A stretch of DNA of 23,917 bases, from positions 1 through 23,917 of the forward strand of contig RBNI01001172.1 in NCBI GenBank assembly GCA_003990745.1. Direction: 5' to 3'. The position numbers and the translations under genes are program-made. Positions 5,700-22,330 of the stretch are shown here, piece by piece. Below the pieces are notes generated by a model, which ran no database searches, was not told the DNA's origin, and saw only the letters and a program-made list of their open reading frames with translations. The number at the start of each line of letters is the position of its first letter. Position 1 is the stretch's first letter. The stretch is from Jimgerdemannia flammicorona. Its lineage: Eukaryota; Mucoromycota; Endogonomycetes; Endogonales; Endogonaceae.

Positions 5700-6052
5700 T
5701 AGTGCTCTCAAATAAATTAAATTAATTCAAATTGAATTAAATTGAGGGTCATTTGAATCAAATTGAATTTAGGATTTTTCAATTTAAATAAAGTTTGAAT
5801 TGAATCAAATTCAAATCAAATTGAGGATTCAATTTAAACACTATTTTTCAAAATATAATAACTCAATAAAAATATATTCAAATTTAATAATCATTAGCTT
5901 GTTAAATTTCTCCTATATAGAGAAATCTAACAAGCTAAAAATAATTAAATTTGGACATATTTTCATTAAGTTATTATATTTAAAAAAAAAATTGAGTTTG
6001 AATTGAATCTCAAATTGAATTAGATCTTTGATTTGATTTATTGAGAGCACTA
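5700..6052. mobile_element. hAT-type MITE, 353 bp, with 8-bp target-site duplication
   Basis: The ends read TAGTGCTCTCA inward from 5700 and, on the other strand, inward from 6052. The flanks are ATCAAGAC (5692-5699) and ATTGAGAC (6053-6060), 8 bp each with 6 of 8 identical. The two differences are CA against TG, as expected if both copies came from ATCGAGAC by CpG deamination on opposite strands. Eight-bp duplications and ends starting T/C-A-R-N-G are traits of the hAT superfamily. The inside is AT-rich, built of AATTGAATT/TTCAAATT words, with long inverted arms. There is no transposase. It splits the Gypsy 1 pol frame exactly between residues before and after the insertion. Confidence 0.8.
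5825..6010. repeat. Long inverted repeat (foldback) at the MITE centre
   Basis: Left arm about 5825-5912 and right arm about 5920-6010 are imperfect reverse complements. The inner stem is clearest: AGCTTGTTAAATTTCTC at 5896-5912 against GAGAAATCTAACAAGCT at 5920-5936, with a 7-base CTATATA loop. The arms continue outward with few mismatches by eye. A transcript could form a long hairpin. Confidence 0.75.
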
Positions 6053-16013: not shown

Positions 16014-16027
16014 GGAATTCTCTCAGA

Positions 16028-16029
<2 letters not shown>
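16014..16029. repeat. Target-site duplication, left copy (VNTR retroposon)
   Basis: GGAATTCTCTCAGATC directly precedes the poly(T) and is identical to 17860-17875. Confidence 0.9.

Positions 16030-16058
<29 letters not shown>
16030..16058 (-). repeat. Poly(A) tail of the VNTR retroposon
   Basis: Twenty-nine T on the plus strand, uninterrupted, next to the left duplication. The long pure tract suggests recent insertion. Confidence 0.9.
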
Positions 16059-16337
16059 CTCTATAGACCAGAGCCCCATTTATTAACTATCTAAAATCCT
16101 CATGCCATACCAGCAGCCACATTCTGCATCTCACCCCACCCTACTCTCATACTACAATTTCTAAACCAATAACAATCTAAGTACCTTTAGGATGTGAGTT
16201 GCGACCTCACTACCTGAGTAACTAGATCCTCCTACCCAGCCTGCCCCACCCAAGAGTGGGTATGGGTTGTGAGCCCCAACCACCTCAAGTACTTGGCATC
16301 TAGTGCACCTGGCCTACCCCTATTAGTGTCTCTCTAT
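16059..16337 (-). other. 3' unique part of the VNTR retroposon
   Basis: About 280 bp, C-rich on the plus strand, with the AATAAA signal at 16079-16084. A short GTGAG/CTCAC hairpin lies near 16195-16213. No coding sequence is recognised. By eye it does not match the LINE 3' UTR beyond the poly(A) signal and its spacing. Confidence 0.6.
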
Positions 16338-17651
16338 CTTGCCCATCTTGCCCGTCTTGCCCAGTTGCCCGGTTGCCCATGTCATTTTTCCCATTTTGTC
16401 CATCTTGCCCATATTGCCCATCTTGCCATCTTGCCCATCTTGTCCATCTTACCCATGTTACCCGTATCTTGCCCATGTCGTTTTGCCCGTTTTGCCCATC
16501 TTGCCCATATCGCCCAACTTGCCGTCTTGCCCATCTTGCCCGTCATGCCCGTATTACCTGTCTTGCCCATCTTGCCCATCTTGCCCATCTTGCCTGTCTT
16601 GCCCATGTCACCCGTCTTGCCGTCTTGCCCATCTTGCCCATCTTGCCCATCTTGCCCATCTTGCCCATGTCACCCGTCTTGCCATCTTGCCCGTCTTGCC
16701 TGTCTTGCCCATGTTACCCATCTTGCCTGTCTTGCCTGTCTTGCCCATCTTGCCTGTCATTTTGTCCATTTTACCCATCTTGCCCATATCACCTGTCTTG
16801 TCTTGCCCATGTTGCCCATGTTGCCCGTTTTGCTGGTCTTGCCTGTGTCATTTTGCCTATTTTGCCTGTCTTGCCCATGTTGCCCATCTTGCCATCTTGT
16901 CCATATTGCCCATCTTGCCTGTTTTGCCCATTATGCCCATCTTGCTCATTTTGCCCATTTTGCCTGTCTTGCCCATTTTGCCCATCTTGCCTGTTTTGCC
17001 TGTTTTGCCCATTTTGCCTATCTTGCCTGTGTTGTTTTGCCCGTTTTGCCTGTCTTGCCCATGTCGCCCGTCTTGCCGTCTTGCCCATCTTGCCCGTTTT
17101 GCCCATGTTGCTCGTGTTACCTGTATTACCCATCTTGCCCATCTTGCCCATCTTGCCCATCTTGCCTGTATCGTTTTGCCCATTTTGCCTGTCTTGCCCA
17201 TGTCGCCTGTCTTGCCATCTTACCCATCTTGCCCGTCTTACCCGTGTTACCTGTCTTGCCCATCTTGCCCGTCTTGCCCGTCTTGCCTGTCATTTTGCCT
17301 GTTTTGCCTGTCTTACCCATGTTGTCCATCTTGTCTTGCCTGTGTTACCCATCTTGCCCATTTTGCCCTGTCATTTTGCCCGTTTTGCCCGTCTTGCCCA
17401 TGTCGCCTGTCTTGCTATCTTGCCTGTATTGCCCATCTTGCCCATTTTGCCAGTCTTGCCCATGTCGTTTTGCCCGTTTTGTCCATCTTGCCCATCTTGC
17501 CCATCTTGCCTGTGTCATTTTGCTGGTTTTGCCCATCTTGCCCATATTGCCTGTTTTGTCATCTTACCCGTCTTGCCCGTCTTGCCTATATTGCCCATAT
17601 TACCTGTGTTATCCGTCTTGCCTGTCTTGCCTGTGTCGTTTTGCCTGTCTT
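16338..17651. repeat. Minisatellite of 9-bp units, TTGCCCGTC family
   Basis: About 1.31 kb of units such as TTGCCCATC, TTGCCCGTC and TTGCCTGTC, with some units lacking a base or reading TTTTGCC. The words GTCGTTTTG or GTCATTTTG recur about ten times at irregular spacing, a loose higher-order unit. Because 9 is a multiple of 3 and the unit lacks stops, all plus-strand frames are open and give false proteins of 437-469 residues made of Leu-Pro-Ile/Val repeats. Confidence 0.95.
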
Positions 17652-17859
17652 ACTCCAAAATTCTTGAAATCCTTGTAACTTGCTGAAACTAGAAGCTATG
17701 GCTACACCAAAAAGACCAGGTCGGACTCCTATACCTAAGGGATGAGGTACACCTGTCGGCGCTCCTTGGAGCCTATATTTGTGGCCCCCAAAACTTGAGA
17801 AGCTCACCATCCTGGTGGCTTAGACATGGAGCCAACTGTTTGGTCCAAGTGAAAGGTAT
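17652..17859 (-). other. 5' unique part of the VNTR retroposon
   Basis: About 208 bp with retained CpG sites (such as GTCGGCGC and GGTCGGAC on the plus strand). A 75-codon minus-strand frame (17586-17810) starts here and runs into the array; coding is doubtful. A transcription start or promoter would be expected in this part, but none was recognised. Confidence 0.5.
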
Positions 17860-17875
17860 GGAATTCTCTCAGATC
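17860..17875. repeat. Target-site duplication, right copy (VNTR retroposon)
   Basis: GGAATTCTCTCAGATC, 16 of 16 identical to 16014-16029. Confidence 0.9.
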
Positions 17876-19040: not shown

Positions 19041-20152
19041 CCCCCTGTAAGAATTCAAGATAAGATAGAAATACATCTCTCCACATTCTATGGATTTACC
19101 ACTGAAAAGTTAATTCTGACCTTCATTGAAGACTTTGAACAATTTGCTGTCATATAAGCTCTCAATATTGAAGTACAATTGGCCCTCCTATCTGTTAGCC
19201 CAGAGGATCTGCCAGAGATAAGTTCAATGTAGCCACTATTGCTAACAATAGTACAGCCAAACTTACCAATATGAAGAACTTCCTCAGAACTATATACTAT
19301 ACTAAAGAGATCAAGCAAGCTCTTAAAGATCAACTCAATACTATCTGCCAAGGACTCAATAAAGACCTCAACTTATTCTATATTCAAATCTGCTATCAAA
19401 TTATCTTAGCTAACTATAATGATACCCTCAAGAAATAGATAGCTGATTCAATCTTCCTAAAAGAAGTCTACCACAAAATTGCTCTAGCAATCTGGTCTAT
19501 CTTAGCTGCTCTGACTCTTGACCAGAAAGTGATCTTTGTACAGAGATATTGAACTACCAGATATCCCACTGAACACTCAATGGAAAGAATAACTAGTATC
19601 AAGATAGAGCTACTAAAGTCAACCAGTATCATATCTATGTACTACAGCTCTCAACAGACAACCATTCCCACCTACTCCCAAGTAGCCAAAGCCAACCCAG
19701 TGGAAGAACTCACCCAATAGTTTACCAAGATGGCAGCATATTTTAGTGATATTGTTAGAGAAGTACAAAGTACCAACAGGAGACCAGTACAGAAGTTTAT
19801 AGCTACTACAGAGGAACACACTATCATATACTTCAAATGTAGAGAAGAAGGCCACTGTACAAAGAATTGCATAACTGAAATAAGGTACAGAGCCCAATCA
19901 AGTAATGCTACTAAAACCAGAGAACAAACCAATATTGAAGAGATTAGTGACACTAATGATGAAGAATACTATGAGGAGTCTGAATTCTACCCTGTTACTA
20001 AAAGTACCAGAACCCAGTCCAAGCTCTATAATAAGAAGAGCAATAGTAAGCTAGTTGGAAGACCAAAAAAGACCCCAACCATTATCATTCAAAGTAAGAT
20101 CCAACCTGAGGAGATTGATCAAGACATAGAGTTAGATGAAGCTATCTACTAA
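19040..20152 (+). pseudogene. Gag of Gypsy 2 with CCHC zinc knuckle
   Basis: The first part (about 19085-19400) reads FYGFTTEKLILTFIEDFEQF, a typical start of a retrotransposon gag core, and then breaks. From 19730 an open frame of 140 codons reads a polar stretch and, at 19829-19870, the knuckle YFKCREEGHCTKNC. Its first Cys is Tyr (TAC from TGC); the other Cys, His, Cys are kept. An acidic tail follows (TNDEEYYEESE; EEIDQDIELDE) and the frame ends with TAA at 20152. It would package element RNA. Confidence 0.75.
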
Positions 20153-20429
20153 ATTATTGAAGGCACTACTCCAGTCTCAAATGAAAGTGAAAGTAAGAAA
20201 GAACAGAAGCTATACAAGACCAAGATTCATTAGTATAATATTTACAAGAATCTCAAGAAATAGAAGATCAATGCTACTTTTGGACAACTAGCAGAAGTCT
20301 CTGCAGTTGAGAGCAGGACTTACAACTACTATCAAAAACCAAAAGTACAAGATCATAGAAGCTCACAATGTATAAAAAGATGAATAAGAAGACTCAGACA
20401 AAGAATTTGAAGATCAGTATAAGACCTCA

Positions 20430-20780
20430 GCCTATACTCAATATCAGATTAAAGATTGTATCTTTAATACTATCATTGATACTGGTGCTAGAGAATGTCT
20501 TATGAGTAAAAAGGCATTTGACTGCCTAGGCTGGAATATTGAAGAATCTATCAAAATAGTCTATGTCACAGTAGATAGTATATGAGCTACCCCTCTAGAC
20601 AAGATCTGAGAAGTCTCTATTAAGATTAGAAGAGCTACTATCTCAGTAGATATGATAATTATGAGTACCACCAACTATGACATCTTCATTGGTAACCAAT
20701 AGCTTCACAAGGCTAAGACTATCATTTACCTCAATGCTCAGAATATACAGATCAACTATAGAGGAAGAAAGGTATAAGTC
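20430..20780 (+). pseudogene. Retropepsin-type aspartic protease of Gypsy 2
   Basis: IIDTGARECLMSKKAF near 20472-20519 carries the active-site loop DTGA (20478-20489), intact. Downstream NYDIFIGNQ, stop, LHKAKTIIYL (about 20670-20735) matches the conserved D-x-x-I-G-x-D/N-W-L region, with Trp turned to TAG. Two further TGA codons interrupt. It would cleave the Gag-Pol polyprotein. It precedes the dUTPase here. Confidence 0.8.
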
Positions 20781-21220
20781 TCTATCAATATCTATAAAAA
20801 AGTACTATCAGACATAGAGAAAGGAGATGAAGAGGATACAGAAGTCTTCATGTACTCAGTATATAAGAATAAGAGCAAGACAACCAAGCTTACAGATAAG
20901 CAGTGGTATAACAAGATCATCAATGGCTATACCCCTCAAGGAAGATGCCCCTATGGTGCCAGGATGTACTATTCTAAACATCTAAATAACTACTGGTCCT
21001 ATATTAGTAAAGTCAGAAAAATCCATCAATAAAAGTATGAGCAAGAAGCAGCTGAAGCAAAAAAGAAAGCTGAAGAAGATGACCAGTCCCCAGAGCTTCA
21101 AGCTGATAGTGATAATGAGGAGGAATATGAATCAGACATCACTCTCAAGGTCAAGAAGTTTCACTCCAAAGCTAAGATCTCAGAATATAAGACTGAAGAA
21201 GCTATAGAAATAGACCTTAC
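20781..21220 (+). pseudogene. Protease-dUTPase linker of Gypsy 2
   Basis: Largely open coding sequence with two pieces: YTPQGRCPYGARMYYSKHL (about 20929-20985), and then a charged run with AEAKKKAEEDD and DNEEEYESDI. No domain is recognised. The Cys/Tyr-rich piece is not a clear zinc motif. Confidence 0.5.
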
Positions 21221-21500
21221 TAGTATCTAAGATACTATCCTTGAACTATAAACCACTACTCTACTTGGTACTGGAATTGGAGTCAAGTTACTAGAGAACT
21301 ATACTAGAATTATCAAAAGCAGAAGCAGTCTGGCCAAGAGAAAAATCTCAGTTAAAGGAGGAGTCATTAATCCTGATTACATTAGTGAGATCTTTCTTAT
21401 AGTTAAAAATCACAACCCCACCACCCTATTTGAAGTTAAGAAGTATGACAAGATTGGCTAGATACTGATCTATAAAGTTAAGAAGCCTAAGATTGCTAAA
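21221..21500 (+). pseudogene. dUTPase domain inside Gypsy 2, between protease and RT
   Basis: The frame reads TGIGVKLLENYTRIIKSRS, then RSSLA at 21321-21335 (motif 2), GGVINPDYISEIF at 21358-21396 (motif 3) and VKNHNPTTLFEVKKYDKIG (the Q-L-I-side C-terminal strands). In the family motif 3 is G-V-I-D; here Asp is Asn (AAT), one G-to-A step away. One TAG occurs after KIG, at a likely Gln. About 90 residues are readable; the N-terminal motif 1 is weak. It would hydrolyse dUTP but is probably inactive here. Confidence 0.8.
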
Positions 21501-21659
21501 GCTATTAAACTCATCAAGACTAAGAGAGAAGAACAAGACTTTGGATCTACTGAAAGAGGAGCCTATACTGCCACTAAGATTACCAAACTTGAGCACAAGA
21601 AAGATAAGGACCAGAATAAGTATATATATACTATTGGAGAAAACTTTTCTCTAGAAGAA

Positions 21660-22330
21660 TAACTTCTCAAGATCCTGCACCAGAATGAAGAAGTACTTAT
21701 CATAGACTTCAGGGATATCCATAATCAAGAACCTAAATATTACCATGAAGTTGATACTAGTGATACCAAGCCCATCTACCAGAAAGCCAGACCTATACTA
21801 CCTATCTACAGAGAATGACTATAAATAGAACTCAAGGAAATAGAAGAAGCTGGTATTATTAAGCAAGCTATTAGCTCCTGGGCTTCACCTATTGTCCTCA
21901 CCCTAAAGAAAGAAATCAAGCCTAGAGAGTTTGCCTCAAGACTCTATGTTGATTGTAGAAAGCTCAATGTAATCACCAAGAAGGATAAGCAGCCCTTGCC
22001 AAATATTCAAGAAATCCTTACTACTCTTGGAAGTAAAGCCAAATACTATACTATCTTGGATCTGTTCTTAGGCTTCTATCAGATTGATCTCACTCAAGAT
22101 ACTAGTGAGAAATCAGCCTTCATTATATCTGACACCACCTATGTCTACTTACAAATATCATTTGAAATATACAATACCCCAGTAAGTTTTCAGCAAATGA
22201 TAGATAGAGTCTTCAGTAATGAAATTGGAAAATAGCTTCTTGTCTATGTTAATAATGTGATCATCTTCAGCAATACTGTATAGGAACATATCAACTATAT
22301 ATAGCTAGCCCTCAAGAAGCTTATAGAAAT
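21660..22330 (+). pseudogene. Reverse transcriptase of Gypsy 2, catalytic Asp pair lost
   Basis: Boxes in order: KPIYQKARPI (about 21770-21800), EEAGIIKQAISSWASPIVL (about 21844-21900), LYVDCRKLNVITKKDKQPL (about 21943-21997), YTILDLFLGFYQIDL (about 22048-22092), FEIYNTPVSFQQMIDRVF (about 22160-22213), and the catalytic box YVNN (22245-22256) for YVDD. Both Asp are Asn; GTTGATGAT to GTTAATAAT explains this as two TpG-to-TpA changes on this strand. Few stops remain, so most of the RT is readable. The domain ends near 22330, before the thumb is complete. Confidence 0.9.

Follow-up and report, generated by a model that had tools for sequence, protein, structure and literature searches.

The window, by which we mean the whole analysed stretch of 23,917 nucleotides of Jimgerdemannia flammicorona contig RBNI01001172.1, holds a near full-length L1-like LINE (LINE-A) and a composite element at 16030-17859 whose sense strand is the minus strand. 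The composite consists of a 5' part, a minisatellite (VNTR) of 9-bp units, a 3' part and an A-tail (Table 1). Both copies of the flanking duplication read GGAATTCTCTCAGATC, with zero mismatches; the boundaries given in the first-pass annotation proved exact, the 16-bp duplication being perfect and the T29 run and the minus-strand AATAAA being located by sequence. The array extends over 1.31 kb and was detected as 141 copies of the unit with 71% match and 9% indels (score 764). Three plus-strand open frames of 446-486 aa run antisense through it. A protein-coding array was rejected, as the repeat is stop-free and unit spacings of 8, 14 and 5 bp among copies break any reading frame.

Table 1. 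Coordinates of the composite element and of LINE-A in the window
Feature	Position	Strand	Basis
Target site duplication, 3' side of the element	16014..16029		sequence
Poly(A) tail, A29 (T29 on the plus strand)	16030..16058	-	sequence
3' part, 279 bp	16059..16337	-	blast, 94-97% identity to non-self copies among the 40 scored of 202 candidates
LINE-related 3' tail ending CTATAG	16061..16124	-	alignment with LINE ends L101-L103; shuffle tests with and without the last 11 nt
AATAAA, 20 nt upstream of the A-tail; probable polyadenylation signal	16079..16084	-	sequence
3'-part core common to subfamily B	16185..16327	-	sequence alignment, 89.5% identical
Minisatellite (VNTR), 9-bp unit GGGCAAGAT with variants	16338..17651	-	repeat detection, register alignment
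5' part, 208 bp	17652..17859	-	blast, 94-98% identity to non-self copies among the 40 scored of 90 candidates
Target site duplication, 5' side of the element	17860..17875		identical 16 bp to 16014-16029
LINE-A, near full-length L1-like LINE with A-tail	7379 to about 13250	-	frames broken into pieces

The window copy of LINE-A has an imperfect target duplication (manual reading). Its reverse transcriptase matches Pfam RVT_1 with an E value of 6.7e-19, the endonuclease match lies just below the curated cut-off, and a comparison with solved structures gave 82-84 bits for chains labelled LINE-1 ORF2 and 36-37 for R2 proteins. Elsewhere in the window, decayed retroelement pieces at 19721-22235 (plus strand), with a CCHC-like knuckle frame (manual reading) and a reverse transcriptase frame, are probably the remains of an LTR retrotransposon, and an inverted repeat at 5844-5988 has 69-bp arms that are 86% complementary around a 7-nt loop.

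The composite recurs throughout the genome. The 134.8 Mb searched are divided among 7754 contigs, and as the contigs seen were all at least 10 kb, the copy counts are lower bounds. The RPB2 of this genome comes closest, among solved structures, to 3h0g (Schizosaccharomyces pombe, 326 bits), ahead of animal chains (294) and of 1i3q from budding yeast (273). In a large protein set, the best of the 120 matches listed among 1228 reach at most 72% identity; those with a name are a protein labelled Myotis brandtii (62% over 73% of the query) and one of Linnemannia elongata (68% over the full query). RPB2 thus makes a fungal host likely. With up to 3 mismatches, a 25-mer from the 3' end was found at 58 places and a 27-mer from the 5' part at 37, while the reversed control of each gave 0. 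AATAAA is present at 56 of the 58 3'-end places, the search motif itself containing AATAAA. Sixty loci were extracted from the blast matches, one 5'-part match near a contig start being omitted. All 53 copies that have a 5' part, window included, continue from it into the array (53 of 53), and the composite lies on dozens of contigs, bearing out the proposal, made from the window copy, that it moves as one unit. Local expansion of a minisatellite beside a chance A-run would also leave a long array at a single place; it is refuted by dispersed copies of the same composite, each with its own flanks and duplications, and we give it virtually no credence.

Array length varies from 551 to 1478 bp (median 1295, 43 copies). 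Ten long-class arrays, compared in 45 pairs, aligned in register with scores that averaged 1972 and never fell below 1719; rotating one array of each pair lowered the mean to 1507 and the highest score to 1584.5. Arrays of different copies thus keep a common register, so the array is passed on with its element instead of being built anew after insertion; its length would have shifted over time. The structure noted at first in one place is therefore beyond chance, given the register alignment and end motifs that recur dozens of times and not once with the reversed pattern. Among 24 copies, pairwise distances in the three parts (5' part, array, 3' part) show no significant correlation, the observed r being reached by 455, 820 and 149 of 2000 Mantel permutations in the three comparisons of parts; for array-length difference against the 3' part, 748 of 2000 did so. 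The copies may accordingly have exchanged sequence or spread in a star-like burst, and low divergence plus a burst could explain the missing correlation. In five arrays the GC content is 0.50-0.54, and the sense strand carries 4-11 four-run GGG motifs per array while the antisense strand has 0 (raw counts), giving the sense strand a potential for G-quadruplexes.

Individual insertions carry the marks of retroposition. Both junctions and an intact 3' end are available for 19 copies, and 15 of these carry a target duplication of their own. Exact duplications of 11-17 bp occur in 13 of the 19; in L022 the duplication measures 13 bp and begins where the copy is truncated, in L013 it measures 18 bp with one mismatch, and none was found in L015, L019, L030 and L039. 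This count leaves out copies with the tail at a contig end. Such a position is common, the tail lying at most 20 nt from the end of the contig in 21 of the 39 loci extracted by the 3' part (L011-L049), so the assembly probably breaks at composite tails. Truncation at the 5' end falls within the 5' part in L011, L022, L029, L032 and L044 (duplication checked for L022 only) and within the array in L020, L026, L028, L037 and L043; L017, L045 and L047 reach a contig end and were excluded from these calls. A 5'-truncated copy of a second subfamily at C741 has a 15-bp duplication with 2 differences, and L107, an extreme case, retains about 22 bp of the 3' end with an A-tail and a duplication (both by manual reading). 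Truncated copies with duplications point to target-primed reverse transcription that begins at the 3' end. The first-pass annotation had foreseen many copies with varied array lengths, A-tails and distinct duplications, and the genome contains them, with duplications of 11-18 bp. It had also reckoned that flanking unique parts free of array and tail elsewhere would speak against its reading. The 3' part does occur array-free, in L098 and in the short remnant L107, and both look like 5'-truncated copies of the family.

The 3' part can itself be shortened or missing. Eight of 14 testable copies of this kind have duplications of 12-16 bp, each matched by 0 of 200 shuffles, and the LINE-related tail is absent from all eight. 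In L055 and L063 the 3' part stops near position 210 and an A-tail follows, L069 breaks off near position 97 with a short A-run, and five copies (L050, L053, L061, L062 and L070) end inside the array and lack a long A-tail. The eight insertions indicate that the LINE-related tail is not strictly needed: an A-tail by itself, or priming within the array, can suffice. The remaining copies, L051, L052, L054, L056, L060 and L067, have no duplication; some of them look to be interrupted by other repeats. Two of the eight, L050 and L061, are independent insertions with an identical array end point, GGGCAAAATGGGAAAAAT, each followed by its own duplication, which suggests a recurrent internal priming or cleavage point.

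As to transcription, the window gave no tRNA and no Rfam match at the gathering threshold. Pol III boxes in the 5' part are no better than in shuffled sequences, 492, 487 and 499 of 500 shuffles being as good, and a T5 run lies inside the 5' part at element position 148. On these grounds a Pol III SINE was rejected. As Pol III signals are missing and AATAAA and an A-tail are present, RNA polymerase II is the better guess.

The composites share their 3' end with a LINE other than the one in the window. A tail-motif search of the genome led to L100 (L101) and L102-L104, which form a second LINE family (LINE-B); pieces of the LINE-A translation match L101-L104 at 32-70% identity. L101-L103 end in CTATAGA followed by an A-tail, and the LINE-B 3' end reads GGCCTATAG. 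LINE-B was found at 6 places in contigs of at least 10 kb, the five others being 66-77% identical to L100, so that no young LINE-B was present among these places, whereas the composites are 94-98% identical. The last ~60 nt of the composites align with L101-L103 in 29 invariant columns across 13 sequences, although most of these tails were found through the last-nucleotide motif and the invariant columns are thus partly selected. One of the tails, that of L110, comes from a 276-bp sequence in which LINE coding was not found, so its LINE label in the alignment is putative. Two further matches to the motif, L113 and L115, look like chance, L113 lying within LINE coding sequence.

Shuffle tests separate the two LINEs. 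Over the last 70 nt, composite A scores 26, 23 and 31 against LINE-B, values reached by 2, 2 and 0 of 1000 shuffles, and composite B scores 38-48 (0 of 1000); against LINE-A, composites A and B score 15-20, which 51-362 of 1000 shuffles reach. Because the LINE-B ends had been found by the last-nucleotide motif, the test was repeated without the last 11 nt. Six composites then scored 22-59 against LINE-B (0-13 of 1000 shuffles, 18 pairs) and 15-19 against LINE-A (41-317 of 1000, 12 pairs). In a 160-nt comparison, the composite scored 63-76 against LINE-B with shuffled maxima of 47-57, and 28 and 44 against LINE-A with shuffled maxima of 54 and 52. We therefore take the tail to come from the LINE-B lineage or to be common to that lineage and the composites, and LINE-A was rejected as the sequence source of the composite 3' end. 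No conserved stem-loop was found in the tail (5 predicted pairs, 0 compensatory).

What the tail says about the machinery is less direct. It points to a LINE of the L101-L103 lineage as founder or helper. Given the six diverged LINE-B places and the tail-less copies, however, the active helper may be LINE-A or a young LINE-B beyond the places found. It is conceivable, if less probable, that the abundant LINE-A moves the composites through poly(A) alone, the LINE-B-like tail being an ancestral relic. LINE-A is far commoner, its 3' end giving 2768 first-look candidates (40 scored), and its copies have A-tails and, at about 12-17 bp, duplications like those of the composites (manual reading); L055 and L063 have A-tails and duplications but no LINE tail. 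Against a LINE-A helper stand the chance-level similarity of the 3' ends and a tail common to several diverged subfamilies. Target choice does not discriminate: the base just before the duplication is a pyrimidine in 19 of 23 composites, and likewise in 7 of the 8 LINE-A copies (10 examined) whose duplication could be read, both by manual reading. The earlier suggestion that the L1-like LINE of the window carries the family thus needs amending, as the shared 3' end leads to the low-copy LINE-B, with LINE-A kept as a possible helper. The LINE-B-like tail could also mean that the composite is an internally deleted LINE-B, its 5' part a LINE-B 5' UTR and its array standing in place of the coding region. 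We consider this improbable, as comparing the 5' part with the translated LINE-A pieces and with the available LINE-B pieces gave nothing convincing (best E 0.009).

The family is not uniform. Subfamily B (L097, L099 and L105) is 92-95% identical apart from self, with 40 of 214 candidates scored, and has the same array but a 3' part only 74-79% identical to that of the window copy; L105, the one copy of subfamily B read toward its 5' side, begins inside the array. This core and the tail recur in L108, L109, L111, L112 and L114, which are additional variants. At the other end of the element, most copies that were read start at (G)ACCTTTCAC, while six (L018, L021, L034, L042, L050 and L064) have a second start type, before (G)ACCAAACAG (manual reading). 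This diversity bears on whether the copies are processed pseudogenes of one repeat-bearing host non-coding RNA gene, made from a master and dead on arrival. Such an origin would fit the A-tails, the 5' truncation and the missing internal Pol III promoter, but the presence of at least two main subfamilies, of several diverged 3' variants with the same tail, and of the second start type in six copies speaks for multiple sources and makes it unlikely.

In this genome the composites are thus scattered, and they show individual target duplications, A-tails, 5' truncations and a LINE-related tail. They very probably constitute a family of non-autonomous, non-coding retroposons, probably transcribed by RNA polymerase II, with a tail related to an L1-clade LINE. 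In the life cycle we propose from these features, the RNA would start at about (G)ACCTTTCAC and be cleaved and polyadenylated about 20 nt past AATAAA. An L1-like LINE protein would then take up the composite RNA in trans, and copying from the A-tail at a nicked site, by target-primed reverse transcription, would create the duplications of 11-18 bp.

The first-pass annotation had likened the window copy to primate SVA elements. SVA, LAVA, PVA and FVA are VNTR composites described as specific to hominoid primates (PMC4432496). As portrayed there, they share with the composite a non-coding, non-autonomous plan of 5' part, central VNTR, 3' part, A-tail and target duplication; movement in trans by an L1-clade LINE is stated for the primate group and presumed for the composite (PMC4432496). 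Unlike the 30-50 bp GC-rich units of the SVA group, the composite unit is of 9 bp with about 50-54% GC (five arrays), and the composite lacks a CT-hexamer/Alu-like 5' region, judging from Rfam on the window and from 17652-17859, where a CT-hexamer array was not seen (PMC4432496). Its 3' end is LINE-B-like and probably differs from the SINE-R, LAVA, PVA and FVA types of the primate group (PMC4432496). Mammalian L1 3' ends are reported to have no similarity to SINEs beyond poly(A) (PMC3747384). The composite works like SVA and is a lookalike rather than SVA; the likeness is fair for architecture and fails for unit size and 5' region.

Other non-autonomous elements resemble the composite in part. 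EhSINE1 of Entamoeba histolytica, with 1-4 internal repeats of 26-27 bp in a total of 451-684 bp, is likewise LINE-dependent and has conserved 5' and 3' regions around a variable number of internal repeats, whereas the composite has about 60-160 units of 9 bp, reaches about 2 kb and has an A-tail (PMC2996970). Eg-R1 of Blumeria is also a fungal non-autonomous non-LTR element free of Pol III boxes and presumed to use Pol II, but its genomic copies are reported to lack a 3' poly(A) and the word 'tandem' is absent from the main text of the paper (PMC6022598). L1-clade LINEs with tail-sharing SINEs are described from maize and sorghum and from Chlamydomonas, where SINEX-3_CR shares about 80 nt, then poly(A), with L1-1_CR (PMC3747384). 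The composite 3' end is similarly homologous to that of an L1-clade LINE; unlike those SINEs, the composite has no Pol III head, carries a large VNTR, is about 1.8 kb long, yielded no conserved stem-loop and can dispense with its tail (PMC3747384). The family thus joins features of the SVA group, EhSINE1, Eg-R1 and tail-sharing SINEs and matches none of them.

We found no fungal VNTR composite in the open-licence literature searched. To our knowledge, the reason for an RNA parasite to carry a minisatellite is not settled. On balance we favour the view that a fungus evolved an SVA-like plan on its own, with several subfamilies branching from it; this would suggest that a G-rich tandem array within the RNA aids its transcription, LINE-protein binding or copying. 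A second, unrelated origin would separate the essentials (array, A-tail and L1-type helper) from primate accident. With tailed and tail-less copies in one family, tail-dependent and tail-independent copying become comparable, and the family would supply the fungal genome with dispersed minisatellites of variable length. In L047 and L056, near-identical non-composite sequence beginning AGGACTTCTTTTGCT follows abruptly after the composite at two different internal points, and is probably another repeat inserted in composites.
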